Shown: positions 8,949 through 45,176 of the stretch, piece after piece
Position numbering within the stretch: position 1 is the stretch's first letter
How the letters are laid out: each line of letters starts with the position of its first letter
Assembly (NCBI GenBank): GCA_017409005.1
Contig: JAFQTP010000003.1
Location: 124,001-188,000 of the forward strand
Direction: 5' to 3'
Origin: Clostridia bacterium
GTDB lineage: Bacteria > Bacillota > Clostridia > Christensenellales > UBA1242
DNA: 64,000 nt
Translations under genes and position numbers: made by a program
Notes under the pieces: generated by a model
The model's input: only the letters and a program-made list of their open reading frames with translations
The model's database searches: none
What the model was told of the DNA's origin: nothing

Positions 8949-9293
8949 GGTTAGATATTTATGTGGTCGCATGAATTTTCATGAGGAAAGTCCGAGCACC
9001 GCAGAGCAAGGGTACCAGATAACGTCTGGCTGAGGCGACTCAAGGTAAAGTGCAACAGAAATAAACCGCTTTTAATTAAGTAAGGGTGAAAGGGCGAGGT
9101 AAGAGCTCACCAACTTGTTAGGTAACTAACATTTGCTGTAAACACTACCCGGTGCAAGATAAGAAAAACATTTAAAAGTTGCTCGCTTAGTTTTTCGATA
9201 CATCGCTTGAACACGCTAGTGATACCGTGTCTAGATAGATGACCACTTAATACAGAACTCGGCTTATTTAATGTCTGACTAAATAAACATATA
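8949..9293 (+). ncRNA. rnpB: RNase P RNA, A-type
   Basis: Catalytic RNA of RNase P, which matures tRNA 5' ends. The universal blocks appear in order: GAGGAAAGTCCGAGC (8983-8997), ACAGAAATAAACCGC (about 9055-9069), AAGGGTGAAAGGG followed by GGTAAGAGCTCACC (about 9082-9110), GGTGCAAGATA (about 9152), and AGATAGATGACCAC...ACAGAACTCGGCTTAT near the 3' end. The AGAGCNCACC element and the GGTACCAGATAACGTCTGGC helix belong to the ancestral A-type, not the B-type of Bacillus and Clostridium. Exact ends are approximate; the 5' end is placed from the promoter. Confidence 0.95.
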
Positions 9294-10568: not shown

Positions 10569-11855
10569 ATGTACGATTTATTTACAGACAACATGAAACA
10601 ATTTGCTCCTTTAGCCGACCGTATGCGACCTAGTTCGCTTTCTGAGTTTATTGGGCAAGAGCATTTAATTTATAAAAATAGTTTTTTAGTTCGAGCAATA
10701 ACAAGCGGTAGCATTGGTAGTTGCATTTTTTATGGACCTCCAGCAACTGGAAAAACAACCATTGCTAACATAATTGCAAACACCTGTAAAGGTCAGTTTC
10801 GAAAACTTAATGCAGTTAGTTCTGGTGTTGGCGATGCCAAACAAATTATTGAAGAAGCACGCAATGCTTTAAAACTTTATGGTACTCGCACTTTTTTACT
10901 TTTAGACGAATGCCACAGGTGGAACAAGGCTCAGTCTGATTGCGTATTGCAAGCAGTTGAAGAGGGTAGCATAACATTTATTGGTTCAACAACTGAAAAT
11001 CCATATATAAACATGACACGTGCAATTGTTAGCCGTTGCCGAGTTTTCGAGTTTAAACCACTATCTAAGCAAAATATAATAACAGCTTTAAATAGGGCAT
11101 TAACCGATAAAGAACGTGGCTATGGCGAACTTAAAATAGATATGCAACCAGATGCTTTAGAGCATTTGGCATGGGCATGCTCAGGCGATGTTCGAAACGC
11201 TTATAATGCTTTAGAACTTGCGGTTAAAACAACACCTGCAAATGCCGATGGTGTTATTGTTATTGATAAACAAACAGCTGAAGAGTGTATTCAAAAAAAG
11301 GCTATTAGCCTAGATGAAAACACGTTCTACGATGTTTTAAGTGCATTCTGTAAAAGTTTAAGGGGCTCCGATGCCGATGCTGCGCTATATTATTCACAAA
11401 AACTTTTGCTTAGTGGTTGCGACCCTAAAATTATTGCTCGCCGCATGATTGCACATGCTTCCGAAGATGTTGGCATGGCCGATAGCAACGCTCTTTTAAT
11501 TGCTATTAGCGCATTAGAGGCAGTTAAAGAACTTGGCATGCCAGAATGCGAACTTGCTTTGTCTCACGCCATAATTTACATTTGTGAGGCGGAAAAAAGC
11601 AATTCGGTTTATCTTGCCATGAGTGCAGCCAAAGAAGATGCTAAAAACTTTATTGACGCACCAGTGCCTAACAATTTAAAAAATCACCCAGCAGGTTATA
11701 ACGATAAAACAGGCAAATATAAATATCCGCACGATTATGGCGGTTATGTTAAACAAACATATTTGCCAGCTGAACTTAAAGATAGGGTTTACTATAAACC
11801 TCTTAGTAACGGTAAAGAAAAAAATATGATTCGAAAAAAAGAACGCAACAAATAA
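10569..11855 (+). CDS. rarA: Replication-associated recombination protein RarA (MgsA)
   Basis: Clamp-loader-like AAA+ ATPase acting at stalled replication forks. Walker A GPPATGKTT is at residues 56-64, Walker B LLLDECHR at 110-117 and sensor-1 IGSTTENPY near 137. The C-terminal tetramerisation part contains HASEDVGMAD, and the family ending NHPAGYNDKTGKYKYPHDY is present. 428 residues is the expected length. AAGAGGAAATT precedes the ATG. It stands alone, 29 bp after the preceding stop. Confidence 0.95.
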   Translation: MYDLFTDNMKQFAPLADRMRPSSLSEFIGQEHLIYKNSFLVRAITSGSIGSCIFYGPPATGKTTIANIIANTCKGQFRKLNAVSSGVGDAKQIIEEARNALKLYGTRTFLLLDECHRWNKAQSDCVLQAVEEGSITFIGSTTENPYINMTRAIVSRCRVFEFKPLSKQNIITALNRALTDKERGYGELKIDMQPDALEHLAWACSGDVRNAYNALELAVKTTPANADGVIVIDKQTAEECIQKKAISLDENTFYDVLSAFCKSLRGSDADAALYYSQKLLLSGCDPKIIARRMIAHASEDVGMADSNALLIAISALEAVKELGMPECELALSHAIIYICEAEKSNSVYLAMSAAKEDAKNFIDAPVPNNLKNHPAGYNDKTGKYKYPHDYGGYVKQTYLPAELKDRVYYKPLSNGKEKNMIRKKERNK

Positions 11856-11990
11856 TTGTTGTGTTTTTTTAATTAACGTGTGTTATTTTTAACGCACACG
11901 TGTGCGTGTGTTTATTATTTAATATACTTTAGTTTATTTATAAAAAATGGCTTTATTTCAAAGTTTTTTCAAAATTTTTTTAAAAAAGTG
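11856..11990. other. Intergenic stretch between rarA and the attenuator promoter
   Basis: Contains a palindromic ACACGTGTG core with flanking GTGTG/CGCAC near 11890-11912, which could end rarA transcription although no good T-run follows. Otherwise only AT-rich sequence is seen. Confidence 0.4.
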
Positions 11991-12019
11991 TTGACAACCA
12001 CTTTTTAATGGTGTATTTT
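11991..12019 (+). promoter_or_regulatory. Promoter of the leader-peptide/ABC exporter unit
   Basis: Consensus TTGACA (11991-11996), 17 bp, TATTTT (12014-12019). Predicted start near 12026, giving a leader RNA of about 190 nt before the exporter. Confidence 0.75.
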
Positions 12020-12071
12020 AATGGTGTTGTTAAGCAAAAAATGCAAAAAATAAAAAAGGAGGAACATAAGT

Positions 12072-12140
12072 ATGAGCATTTTAAAAGTTAACGCAGTTAC
12101 AAAAAATAATTTAATTTGCCATACGAATGGTTCTTTTTAA
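12072..12140 (+). CDS. 22-residue leader peptide of the ABC exporter
   Basis: Short ORF of 22 codons from an ATG preceded by a strong GGAGG (AAAAAAGGAGGAACATAAGT upstream), ending TAA at 12138-12140. The peptide begins MSILKVNAVTK and ends CHTNGSF; I know no homologue. Its last codons (12120-12132) are one arm of an antiterminator helix with 12182-12193, so how far a ribosome gets decides which RNA hairpin forms. The layout matches leader peptides such as B. subtilis BmrB ahead of bmrCD. The coding status rests on the ribosome site and this geometry. Confidence 0.72.
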   Translation: MSILKVNAVTKNNLICHTNGSF

Positions 12141-12217
12141 AAGTGATATTTTTTATCACTCTAATTTTGTGGAATTTATAAAACCTTCGTATGCTAAAAA
12201 TTTACGGAGGTTTTTTT
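12120..12217 (+). promoter_or_regulatory. Antiterminator/terminator attenuator ahead of the ABC exporter
   Basis: Two alternative structures share the segment AACCTTCGTATG (12182-12193). Antiterminator: it pairs with CATACGAATGGTT (12120-12132), 12 pairs with one bulged T, enclosing a small AGTGATA/TATCACT hairpin (12142-12160). Terminator: AACCTTCGTA (12182-12191) pairs with TACGGAGGTT (12203-12212), one T-G wobble, followed by T7 up to the exporter ATG. The terminator also buries the exporter's GGAGG. A ribosome finishing the leader ORF covers the first arm and favours termination; a ribosome stalled earlier favours read-through. Confidence 0.78.
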
Positions 12218-14020
12218 ATGTTAAAAAATAATAAAAATAAAATAGGTATTTCCAATTATTTAAATCACTACAAATTTGGAATATTCCTATACATTGCTGT
12301 TTATGTTCTTGCAGCAGTTATGAGTATTTTTATAACTTTGTTGTTTGCAAGGGCAATTGAGCTTGTAACTTTAGCCGAATATGTTTCTGCTGTAACCACA
12401 TTTTTAGTGTTACTGGGCTGTTCGGTTGTTCGCAGAATTTGCTGGTACACTAGTGGCATTATCTATCAAAAATATGCAACCAGCATTATGGCTGAGCTTA
12501 ACCTAGACCTTGCAAAACAAGCGTTTAAGTTAAACTCTCAAACCTATTCTAACCACGAAACCGGCACATTTGTGCAACGAATTGTGTCTGATCCAGAAAG
12601 GTTGGTTAATAACATGGCTGACATTGTAGATATGATAACCGAAATTTTATCTTCTCTTGTTATCATTGTTTACATTTCAACATTAAATATTTACATTGGT
12701 TTAGTTATTTTTGCTTTGCTTGCTACTTGCATGATTTTAGAAATGAATCGTGTTAAGGTTTTCCGCAAAAACCGCAGAAAAACACGTAAAGCAAGCGATA
12801 AAATTAATTCTTTAACAACCGAAATTGTTCGTTCAGAAAAAGATATTAAAGCAATTGGTTTAGAAGATAAATTAAGCGAAGTTTCTAAAAAATATTACGA
12901 CGATTATAAACGTGTTAACTATAAAACCGATATGACCGATATGACATTCTGGAGTTCAAGAAACTTTATTATTGAAACTGTTTCAATTTTAATGTTGGTT
13001 TTAGGTGTTGTGTTAGTCGATAAAGCACTTTTAACATTTGCATCGTTTATGATTATTTACTCAAATAATGGCGATTTATATGGCTTAATTTGGCAACTTG
13101 GCAACATTTCTAACAAGTTTTCTGAAATTAAAATTTGTTCCGATCGTATGTTTGCTTTGTTTAACGACCCTGAGTTTGTTTGCGAGCGTTTTGGTGGTAT
13201 AGAACTAGAAAATGTTAAGGGTGAAATTGAGTTTGAAAATGTTTGTTATTCTTATAACGACTACGAAAAACAAGACGACGAAGAGGAAGATTCTAAACCT
13301 AAAAAACACAAAGTTAAAAAACAACGAAAAATTGTTGCAACAAACAAAATTTTTGAAGATTTAAATTTTAAAATTAAGCCAAACACAACAGTAGCGTTTG
13401 TTGGTAAAAGTGGTAGTGGAAAATCTACAATTTTAAATTTAATGAGCAAAATGTATGAGGTAGATGGTGGGCAGGTTTTAATTGATGGCGTAAACATTAA
13501 CGATTTAAGTAAAAATTGTTTACGTAATTCAATTTCGCTTGTAAACCAATTCCCATACATATTTGATATGACCATCAAGGAAAACCTACTTCTTGCAAAA
13601 AAAGATGCAACCGACGAAGAAATTAACAAAGCAATTAAAGACGCTTCGTTCGACGATTTTATTGCAACACTTCCAAAGGGTATTAACACAAAAGTTGGTG
13701 AAAGCGGTGTTAAACTTAGCGGTGGTCAAAAACAACGCTTAGCAATTGCTAGGGCACTTCTTCGAAATTCAAGCATTATTATTTTCGACGAAAGCACATC
13801 TAGCCTTGATAACTTTGCTCAAGAAAACATTAAACGTAGCATCGATAACTTAAAGGGTAAAAGCACCATTGTCATTGTTGCTCACAGGCTTTCAACCATT
13901 AAAAATGTTGATAAAATTTTCTTTTTAGATGAAGGAAAAATTATCGATAACGGAACGTTTGAACAACTATTTGAAACTAACGAAAAATTTAAAAATATGT
14001 TCCTAGCCGAAAATATTTAA
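12218..14020 (+). CDS. ABC exporter, fused permease and ATPase (multidrug type)
   Basis: About 600 residues: an N-terminal six-helix exporter domain (to about residue 310) followed by one ATPase domain with Walker A GKSGSGKST near residue 397, signature LSGGQKQR near 500 and Walker B IIIFDEST. Between the domains is a charged insert rich in Asp/Glu then Lys (nucleotides 13260-13330), unusual for the family. The ATG at 12218 is chosen because GGAGG sits 7 bp upstream; the ATG at 12191 lies inside the attenuator. It probably works as a homodimer, exporting a toxic compound whose effect on ribosomes would relieve the attenuator. The substrate is unknown. Confidence 0.88.
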   Translation: MLKNNKNKIGISNYLNHYKFGIFLYIAVYVLAAVMSIFITLLFARAIELVTLAEYVSAVTTFLVLLGCSVVRRICWYTSGIIYQKYATSIMAELNLDLAKQAFKLNSQTYSNHETGTFVQRIVSDPERLVNNMADIVDMITEILSSLVIIVYISTLNIYIGLVIFALLATCMILEMNRVKVFRKNRRKTRKASDKINSLTTEIVRSEKDIKAIGLEDKLSEVSKKYYDDYKRVNYKTDMTDMTFWSSRNFIIETVSILMLVLGVVLVDKALLTFASFMIIYSNNGDLYGLIWQLGNISNKFSEIKICSDRMFALFNDPEFVCERFGGIELENVKGEIEFENVCYSYNDYEKQDDEEEDSKPKKHKVKKQRKIVATNKIFEDLNFKIKPNTTVAFVGKSGSGKSTILNLMSKMYEVDGGQVLIDGVNINDLSKNCLRNSISLVNQFPYIFDMTIKENLLLAKKDATDEEINKAIKDASFDDFIATLPKGINTKVGESGVKLSGGQKQRLAIARALLRNSSIIIFDESTSSLDNFAQENIKRSIDNLKGKSTIVIVAHRLSTIKNVDKIFFLDEGKIIDNGTFEQLFETNEKFKNMFLAENI

Positions 14021-14157: not shown

Positions 14158-14883
14158 TTAAATTTCTGGTGTAAAGCCGTTGCTTATAACATTGTCGCAA
14201 TACTTAACAACATTTAAATAATCATGTTCGTTTGCAATGTCGTATGCAATAATTGGAAGCACGTTATATTTGTTAACGGCTTTGCTTGGTAGGTCGCAAG
14301 CATTATAAACAATAAAATCTGGTTCGGCAATTTTGTTAAATTTAAGTTTGGTTAATTTTTTGGTTTTAATGCTACCATAAAATTTATCGGTAAATTTGCC
14401 ACTTTTAATACCGCGCAACACATCTGGTGCGTTGTTTTTAAACCATTCAACAGTGTATGGGTTAGTAGAAACAATTGCATATTCGCCAGGGTAGTCTTTT
14501 AAAACTTTATAAATGTTGCTTTCAATTTTGCCAACTGAGCCGTCGTTATAAATATTAATTAAAACTGGAACTTTGCCTGCAATGGTTTTAAGTGCATCTT
14601 CAAAACTTAAAACATTATATTTTGTGTTTTTAATTTTAAGTTTTTTAACTTCGTCTAAACTAAGTGTTTGAACATAGCCTGTTCCATCGGTTAATTTGGC
14701 AACGTTTTTATATGAAAAACAAACCAAATTTTCGTCGTCTAAACTTTGCACGCAAATCATAATTGGGGCATTTAATTTAATTGCATTTTCATAGGCTCCA
14801 ACACTATTTTCTGGTTCGGTTTCAGTAACAAAACCAAATCTGGTAATTGTTTTATTAACAAGCCAACTTTCAAATATATCCAT
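14158..14883 (-). CDS. Degenerate glycerophosphodiester phosphodiesterase-like protein
   Basis: 241 residues with the GDPD fold layout: PENS at 24-27, a GTGYV segment at 67-71 followed by LSLDEVKKL, and later barrel strands ending in ISNGFTPEI. The hallmark active site is gone. The catalytic HRG is RFG (residues 15-17), the metal ligands of ELD are replaced (MIC, 42-44), and the HD pair is FS (56-57). It is therefore probably not an active phosphodiesterase and may bind a ligand or partner. It is monocistronic on the minus strand, convergent with the exporter. The frame is intact, which argues for retained function. Confidence 0.72.
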   Translation of the reverse strand: MDIFESWLVNKTITRFGFVTETEPENSVGAYENAIKLNAPIMICVQSLDDENLVCFSYKNVAKLTDGTGYVQTLSLDEVKKLKIKNTKYNVLSFEDALKTIAGKVPVLINIYNDGSVGKIESNIYKVLKDYPGEYAIVSTNPYTVEWFKNNAPDVLRGIKSGKFTDKFYGSIKTKKLTKLKFNKIAEPDFIVYNACDLPSKAVNKYNVLPIIAYDIANEHDYLNVVKYCDNVISNGFTPEI

Positions 14884-44784: not shown

Positions 44785-44860
44785 GGGAGTTTAGCTCAGT
44801 TGGGAGAGCATCTGCCTTACAAGCAGGAGGTCATAGGTTCGAGCCCTATAACTCCCACCA
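44785..44860 (+). tRNA. tRNA-Val (anticodon TAC)
   Basis: Acceptor GGGAGTT/AACTCCC, D arm TAGCTCAGTTGG, anticodon loop CTTACAA, T arm GGTTCGAGCC, encoded CCA. Confidence 0.97.
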
Positions 44861-44881
44861 TTTATTTGTAATGATATTTAT

Positions 44882-44956
44882 GCGGGGGTGGCTCAGCGGT
44901 AGAGCGTCGCCTTGCCAAGGCGAATGTCGCGGGTTCAAATCCCGTCCTCCGCTCCA
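44882..44956 (+). tRNA. tRNA-Gly (anticodon GCC)
   Basis: Acceptor GCGGGGG/CCTCCGC (one G-T), anticodon loop TTGCCAA, T loop GGTTCAAATCC, encoded CCA. Confidence 0.97.
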
Positions 44957-45006
44957 TTAAATTACATAGGATAGCCGATTAGGTTCGTAAGCGTTTAAAG
45001 TTTTAT

Positions 45007-45081
45007 GGCACCGTAGCCAAGCGGTAAGGCCAAGGTCTGCAAAACCTTTATGCTCCAGTTCGAATCTGGACGGTGCCTCCA
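45007..45081 (+). tRNA. tRNA-Cys (anticodon GCA)
   Basis: Acceptor GGCACCG/CGGTGCC, anticodon loop CTGCAAA, T loop AGTTCGAATCT, encoded CCA. Confidence 0.97.
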
Positions 45082-45089
45082 ATAATTAT

Positions 45090-45176
45090 GCCGAAGTGGC
45101 GGAATAGGCAGACGCACAGGACTTAAAATCCTGCGATAGCAATATCGTACCGGTTCAAGTCCGGTCTTCGGCACCA
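45090..45176 (+). tRNA. tRNA-Leu (anticodon TAA)
   Basis: Acceptor GCCGAAG/CTTCGGC, anticodon loop CTTAAAA, long variable arm typical of Leu, T loop GGTTCAAGTCC, encoded CCA. Confidence 0.97.

Follow-up and report, generated by a model that had tools for sequence, protein, structure and literature searches.

In Bacillus subtilis, the vmlR leader combines an anti-antiterminator, an antiterminator and a terminator, and a ribosome arrested on the upstream ORF (uORF) breaks the first of these hairpins (Takada et al. 2022, PMC9226507). The same text states that vmlR is induced by drugs that stall initiation, that lincosamides and pleuromutilins stall the ribosome near the uORF start, that sequence variants of the uORF are functional, and that the downstream Shine-Dalgarno (SD) sequence is partly masked too (PMC9226507). 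For bmrB-bmrCD of the same bacterium, a block of leader translation is described as lowering expression and abolishing induction (Reilman et al. 2014, PMC4191407). The tlrB (yxjB) leader, also from B. subtilis, requires an RYR-type arrest motif in the case of tylosin (available text of PMC6851288), and in the toiL-topAI system of Escherichia coli tetracycline and retapamulin stall at the toiL start (available text of PMC12121999). Finally, one of the ABC-leaders of Naville and Gautheret 2010 precedes a multidrug export operon in lactobacilli (PMC2965389, accessible part).

The 64,000-nt stretch of Clostridia bacterium DNA that was analyzed here (hereafter, the window) contains, directly before the gene of an ABC exporter, a leader which, by its predicted architecture, is a ribosome-mediated transcription attenuator of the bmrB/vmlR type. 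It has a leader ORF with an SD sequence and, judging from sequence and fold, an intrinsic terminator placed after the leader stop codon and before the exporter; folding adds an antiterminator (B:C) with a shared arm and, with an assumed ribosome footprint, a helix (A:B) that a ribosome would disrupt (the arms are defined below). With vmlR it shares the anti-antiterminator logic and a start-proximal stall, the latter being a prediction here. In the available account of vmlR, however, the ORF has three codons, as against 22 in the window and 15–36 in the family, the SD is said to be unpaired and to precede the hairpin, whereas here SD and AUG together would form the anti-antiterminator arm, and the target is a cytosolic ABC-F protein and not a membrane exporter (ABC_membrane). 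With bmrB the leader has in common a leader ORF, a predicted anti-antiterminator, antiterminator and terminator, and an ABC exporter downstream (PMC4191407). In the accessible description of bmrB, the three structures fall within nt 60–162 of a 53-codon ORF, so that the terminator lies inside the ORF (PMC4191407), and the ribosome site of that ORF is not an arm, unlike the leader ribosome site here; bmrCD is a two-gene exporter, whereas here there is one gene, and the terminator follows the leader stop and is shared with the exporter SD.

The tlrB system resembles the present one in its leader peptide, its terminator and an SD-sequestering hairpin that would also inhibit leader translation, so that timing matters there; in the available text an overlapping antiterminator is not identified, and the target is an rRNA methylase (PMC6851288). 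What would set the present leader apart from vmlR and bmrB is that the leader SD acts as the anti-antiterminator arm and the exporter SD as the terminator arm, with tlrB coming near on the first of these points. In ermC and ermK, leader translation hides the downstream SD (ermC) or forms the terminator (ermK), and a stall switches the state (PMC5418344, available part); ermC acts on translation, and the targets of both are rRNA methylases. The toiL uORF is comparable in sensing several ribosome drugs, some of them via start-codon stalling; in toiL-topAI, as far as the accessible text describes it, an SD is freed, with Rho-dependent termination behind it and without a chain that ends in an intrinsic terminator (PMC12121999). 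The ABC-leaders of Naville and Gautheret are likewise predicted terminator/antiterminator structures before ABC transporters; they come from other taxa, and a leader ORF is not described for them in the available text, which sets them apart by description alone (PMC2965389).

Layout of the locus and predicted helices

The source genome comprises 1.21 Mb in 8 contigs. The features of the region, in window coordinates and with the basis of each assignment in brackets, are the following:

10569–11855: RarA/MgsA-type ATPase gene, the 5' neighbor of the leader region (Pfam)
11991–12019, + strand: predicted promoter TTGACA-17 nt-TATTTT (consensus scan, 10/12 bases)
12057–12078, + strand: arm A, leader SD and start codon (folds; arm-swap tests)
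12058–12062, + strand: leader SD GGAGG, inside arm A (sequence)
12072 (ATG) to 12138–12140 (TAA), + strand: leader ORF of 22 codons plus TAA, MSILKVNAVTKNNLICHTNGSF (sequence)
12120–12132, + strand: arm B, the final leader codons, partner of A or C (folds; arm-swap tests)
12142–12160, + strand: small spacer hairpin between B and C (fold)
12182–12193, + strand: arm C, antiterminator with B, terminator with D (folds; covariation)
12203–12214, + strand: arm D with the exporter SD, pairing with 12180–12191 (fold, covariation)
12206–12210, + strand: exporter SD GGAGG, within arm D (sequence)
12211–12217, + strand: T7 tract, predicted terminator tail and SD-to-ATG spacer (sequence)
12218–14020, + strand: ABC exporter of 600 aa, ATG at 12218, a single gene (sequence, Pfam)
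14158–14883, strand opposite to the exporter: gene 3' of the exporter

The promoter, the 22-codon leader ORF with its SD, the arms B, C and D, the T7 tract and the hidden GGAGG all lie in the sequence where a preliminary description had placed them; of its helix set, B:C and C:D stand, and arm A, the second partner of B, had been overlooked. The A:B pairs join 12057–12065 with 12130–12138, and 12070–12074 plus 12076–12078 with 12117–12124; the B:C helix contains a single bulge, T 12128, and the C:D terminator helix starts at 12180. An exporter start at 12191, which would give a longer ORF, was rejected: that ATG belongs to arm C and lacks an SD sequence, which 12218 has. The exporter is a half transporter with an ABC_membrane and an ABC_tran domain (Pfam); none of the 25 NCBIfam matches listed for it was above cut-off, and its sequence relatives in the PDB are broad exporters of the P-glycoprotein/MsbA/Sav1866 type. 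Elsewhere in the window, a class A RNase P RNA (8951–9282) and a cluster of four tRNA genes (44785–45173) were noted.

The fold of the whole leader beats 200/200 dinucleotide shuffles (z -3.81), as does that of its C:D part (200/200, z -4.77), and a search with a degenerate C:D signature gave one match in the window and none in 100 shuffles. The minimum-energy fold consists of A:B and C:D, so that, of the two helices proposed earlier, C:D appears and B:C is replaced by A:B. A duplex search in relatives found A:B, B:C and C:D in 29 loci (L058 and L072 were left out, the leader not being found in the available DNA), with energies of -14.6 to -23.8 kcal/mol for A:B, -10.1 to -27.5 kcal/mol for B:C and -10.4 to -23.1 kcal/mol for C:D, the values of -27.5 and -23.1 including long or loop-rich pairings. 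Hence, three mutually exclusive helices are predicted, as a chain that spans the distance from the leader ribosome site to the exporter ribosome site. Across 47 leaders, A:B pairs the leader AUG in 94% and the SD positions -12 to -6 in 87–100%. The spacer hairpin, by comparison with dinucleotide shuffles (p 0.05 or less), stands out in just 7 of 27 loci, which rules it out as a general feature between B and C.

Recurrence and conservation among relatives

The exporter was compared across 148 related genomes and 30 loci were taken, one of which (L026) was dropped as it has no upstream DNA. Among the 29 exporter-relative loci with readable upstream DNA, the element is present in 17 and absent in 12, including L005 of the same genus. 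A history of 5 changes on the exporter tree accounts for where the element occurs, compared with 9.6 for shuffled labels, and none of 500 shuffles was as low. A covariance model spanning arm B to the exporter ATG, from alignment A2 (25 of 29 loci; L017, L084, L023 and L080 omitted), gave 54 matches in 53 of the 309 genomes of the family. Relatives of the exporter, with a lowest identity of 46%, follow 48 of these matches; the next gene was read for 50 matches, the other four (L018, L019, L021, L023) having been read already, and the 48 include L120, counted via its tandem second copy, and L132, for which a contig cut left 33 residues to judge by. The remaining six (L130, L133, L135, L139, L140, L141) are weak, with E values of 6.7e-4 to 0.009, and do not precede an exporter. 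Since the filters lose weak matches (L013, L017 and L024 were missed), the counts from the model are lower bounds.

When 396 genomes were drawn evenly from the order, family members among them, eight matched the model, namely, six with known exporter leaders, all in this family, and two in which the match is not before an exporter, G080 and G471 (the latter from another family, L142); no exporter leader was found outside the family in this draw. A scan of 84,980 species with the C:D pattern returned 58 stretches, 25 of which precede an exporter relative (L042 being counted through its contig mate L121) and 33 of which lie in other contexts. In its own genome, a 351-nt DNA query matched at its own place alone, without a second copy; a loose pattern gave three one-mismatch places there, not exceeding the backward control, and this pattern misses the element itself. 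At 11980–12260 Rfam returned nothing at the gathering cut-off, the best sub-threshold hits being His_leader (20.6 bits, cut-off 49) and FtrA (20.8 bits, cut-off 134), and no published description of the element was found in the literature searched, from which subscription papers mostly fell outside. The element is, then, an RNA family that has no Rfam match and a known architecture, that of the vmlR/bmrB kind of attenuator. Leader-controlled exporters are known from a few cultured Firmicutes; the family considered here belongs to the Clostridia, has small genomes, is mostly uncultured and includes some records from animal guts, and the covariance model offers a means of finding such leaders.

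Three side observations came from these searches. Two copies of the element, L120 and L123, stand in tandem before one exporter (G170:C3:60946-61156). In three genomes (L130, L135 and L140), the gene of a 158-aa protein beginning MKKSQIRCIVGN follows a similarly shaped hairpin that contains its SD and lies before a T tract, perhaps a separate attenuator. In the pattern scan, five loci of Lachnospiraceae type (L038, L039, L063, L065, L079) carry a near-identical hairpin, CTTCGTATGATT..TCATACGGAGGTTTTCTTTT, with neither leader nor exporter, which resembles a recurring terminator.

Relatives and the window together provide 48 distinct leader ORFs of 15–36 codons at the same place, 42 of them preceded by a TTGAC(N) box and a -10 element (at least 4/6) spaced by 16–18 nt. 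The encoded peptides diverge widely among these 48. In 38 leaders the core of arm B is read in the main frame, as H(T/A)NG and variants, and here arm B lies 40 to 61 nt from the ATG, at distances that differ by multiples of three, as expected for a translated ORF. The other ten have the core in other frames; clean cases are L023, L088, L108 and L116 (one frame) and L019 and L022 (the third frame), whereas in L013 and L024 the core falls on the stop codon and L131 and L137 were placed by an ad hoc pattern. The RNA arm thus outlives changes of the peptide, and the leader peptide, as far as these sequences tell, is not a conserved sensor, given that the leaders differ and that the reading frame across arm B is not constant. 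The conservation of the arms in relatives supports the terminator, the antiterminator, the hidden exporter SD and the role of the leader as sensor that had been proposed for this locus. As a separate feature, which is absent from the window's copy, leaders of relatives such as L032, L056, L078, L080 and L088 have GTCGA close to where the transcript probably begins, and in several of them a hairpin comes next whose arms vary by species with the pairing kept (AAAGTTG/CAACTTT, AAAGCTG/CAGCTTT, AGGTTG/CAACCT).

Covariation by columns was counted in alignment A1, which holds 27 of 29 loci (L017 and L084 omitted). In the C:D columns, 7 of 12 pairs changed on both sides and 92.9% of cells are paired, with 0/500 shuffles matching on all five measures; the two-sided change owes much to few lineages (L013/L024 being one). 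The B:C columns are not significant: 89.2% of cells are paired, a value reached by 79/500 shuffles, and three pairs changed on both sides, a number equalled by 233/500; in this alignment the B:C arms of L013/L024, L018 and L022 are shifted out of register. For A:B, the spacing from SD to ATG varies, so that the pairs cannot be counted by columns, and arm swapping was used instead, on 28 loci (L017 omitted), with fixed windows for the arms and 20000 permutations that treat loci as independent. Cognate arms pair better than swapped ones in all three helices, the mean energies being -18.27 vs -14.44 kcal/mol for A:B, -18.06 vs -15.03 kcal/mol for B:C and -14.75 vs -13.43 kcal/mol for C:D, with 0/20000 permutations as good in each case; fitted windows gave the same outcome, C:D then showing 1/20000. 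The control pairings A:C, B:D and A:D had no swap effect (15402, 10658 and 3669 of 20000). The own partner exceeded the median foreign partner in 21/28 loci for A:B, in 19/28 for B:C and in just 12/28 for C:D, as arms C and D are nearly invariant. Extended to 47 leaders, the A:B swap gave -18.16 vs -14.65 kcal/mol (0/20000), and arm B scored -8.27 against the 28 nt preceding A and -3.98 against codons 3–11. The covariation anticipated for both helices was, accordingly, found by columns for C:D; for B:C it emerged from arm swapping and not from columns.

Ribosome position and the predicted switch

The effect of a ribosome was modeled with an assumed footprint of 31 unpaired nt centered on the first P-site base (15 nt in each direction) in 28 loci (without L017). 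In this model, A:B and C:D each score at least 0.5 without a ribosome in 27/28 loci (the exception being L010), A:B does not exceed 0.34 in any of the 28 when the P-site is on codon 3, and C:D scores at least 0.5 with a ribosome at the stop codon in 26/28 (it fails in L010 and L041). In transcripts ending just after C, a ribosome on codons 1–2 brings B:C to about 0.5 or more in 28/28 loci; this holds in the window's copy for codons 1–7 and again for codon 12, and L013, L022 and L024 favor B:C with the ribosome on codons 1–2 alone. In the full-length RNA of the window's copy, with the ribosome on codon 3, B:C scores 0.00 and C:D 0.82, and at equilibrium B:C reaches 0.4 under an early stall in just 8/28 loci. 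Since C:D wins in the complete RNA despite the early stall, the decision must fall during transcription; the ON state would depend on B:C forming before C:D and lasting. In 9/28 loci, B:C is favored in the RNA that stops after C even when no ribosome is present, so that full silence in the absence of translation is not general in the model. The preliminary description had a ribosome at the stop codon switching the exporter off, which the model bears out, and any stall switching it on, which has to be narrowed to ribosomes near the leader start; with the leader SD bound to the 3' end of the leader, the prediction for a full-length leader that no ribosome translates is OFF and not ON.

We consider it likely that the element is a ribosome-controlled transcription attenuator and that expression of the exporter requires ribosomes to be detained early in the leader ORF. 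Without a ribosome, A:B and C:D would form, and transcription would end in the T tract, leaving the two ribosome sites covered. A ribosome reading to the leader stop would cover B, letting C:D re-form, and the exporter would again be OFF. A ribosome held on about codons 1–7 would instead cover A and leave B free; free B would then take C before D is transcribed, the terminator would fail, and the exporter SD would be open. As no amino-acid code is common to the first codons, the holding signal would be a translation inhibitor or another block of early translation, most plausibly an inhibitor of initiation or of the formation of the first peptide bonds, and the exporter would remove this inhibitor or a related toxic compound.

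There is about an even chance, in our estimate, that the leader works as a relay in which the leader SD is the anti-antiterminator arm and the exporter SD the terminator arm, with two switch arms between them. In that case, only a stuck ribosome that is initiating or has just started would lift arm A, the RNA would read many kinds of early translation arrest and not one drug or peptide, the leader would shut itself off once the RNA is complete, and the RNA family, conserved within a single family of the Clostridia, would have drifted in sequence and frame while its chain of three helices was kept. Dozens of natural variants have retained the helices despite changes in the peptide and even in the frame, which makes the sensing rule testable: if only the position of the ribosome matters, frame-shifted and diverged leaders should answer the same start-stalling inhibitors.

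Output and sensing: the alternatives

As to the output, the attenuation could be mainly translational, as in ermC, with readthrough occurring regardless and the same helices hiding or opening the exporter SD. This would fit the position of the exporter SD within arm D, in the window and in most loci, as well as the short or broken T tracts of L018 and L022 (TTTT and TTCTTT). Most loci, however, have a T tract of at least 6 after D, and in several loci the SD is not available for masking by the hairpin: the L017 hairpin runs out into T8, its exporter having another SD further downstream, in L042 the hairpin is not directly followed by the exporter start, which is out of reach, and GGAGG is missing from arm D of L131 and L137, so that termination, and not SD masking, has been kept in these four. 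In the full-length folds of most loci, moreover, an early stall does not open C:D, and we regard a mainly translational mechanism as unlikely. The element probably acts through both termination and SD masking, in proportions that vary by lineage, termination being the more widespread.

As to the sensing, the leader might be a nascent-peptide arrest sensor for one drug class, like the ermC and ermD leaders. Arrest in ermC depends on the nascent peptide, and the C-terminal H(T/A)NG recurs in many of the leaders studied here; this motif, however, is arm B read in the common frame, and other frames keep the arm. Furthermore, R/K-x-R/K, an arrest motif of ermC/ermD-type leaders, occurs within the first 9 residues in 0/47 leaders, and a stall at the C-terminal end of the leader would cover B, for which the prediction is OFF. 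Peptide arrest thus appears improbable. A leader of the trp/his type, which senses an amino acid through charged tRNA, would share the form of the element, i.e., a short leader ORF, a terminator and an antiterminator, and would agree with the weak Rfam similarity to His_leader mentioned above. Against it, there is no run of a single residue, codons 2–7 have no common amino acid across 47 leaders, the early codons mixing K, I, N, T, L and V, the peptides differ among relatives, and the target is an exporter and not a biosynthesis gene, which makes amino-acid sensing quite improbable. A plain terminator next to a well-placed SD, with the leader ORF and the extra pairings incidental, would account for C:D being the most conserved part, but it is disfavored as very improbable by the preference of A:B and B:C for their own partners, by the three null control pairings and by the maintenance of the leader ORF in 48 distinct copies.
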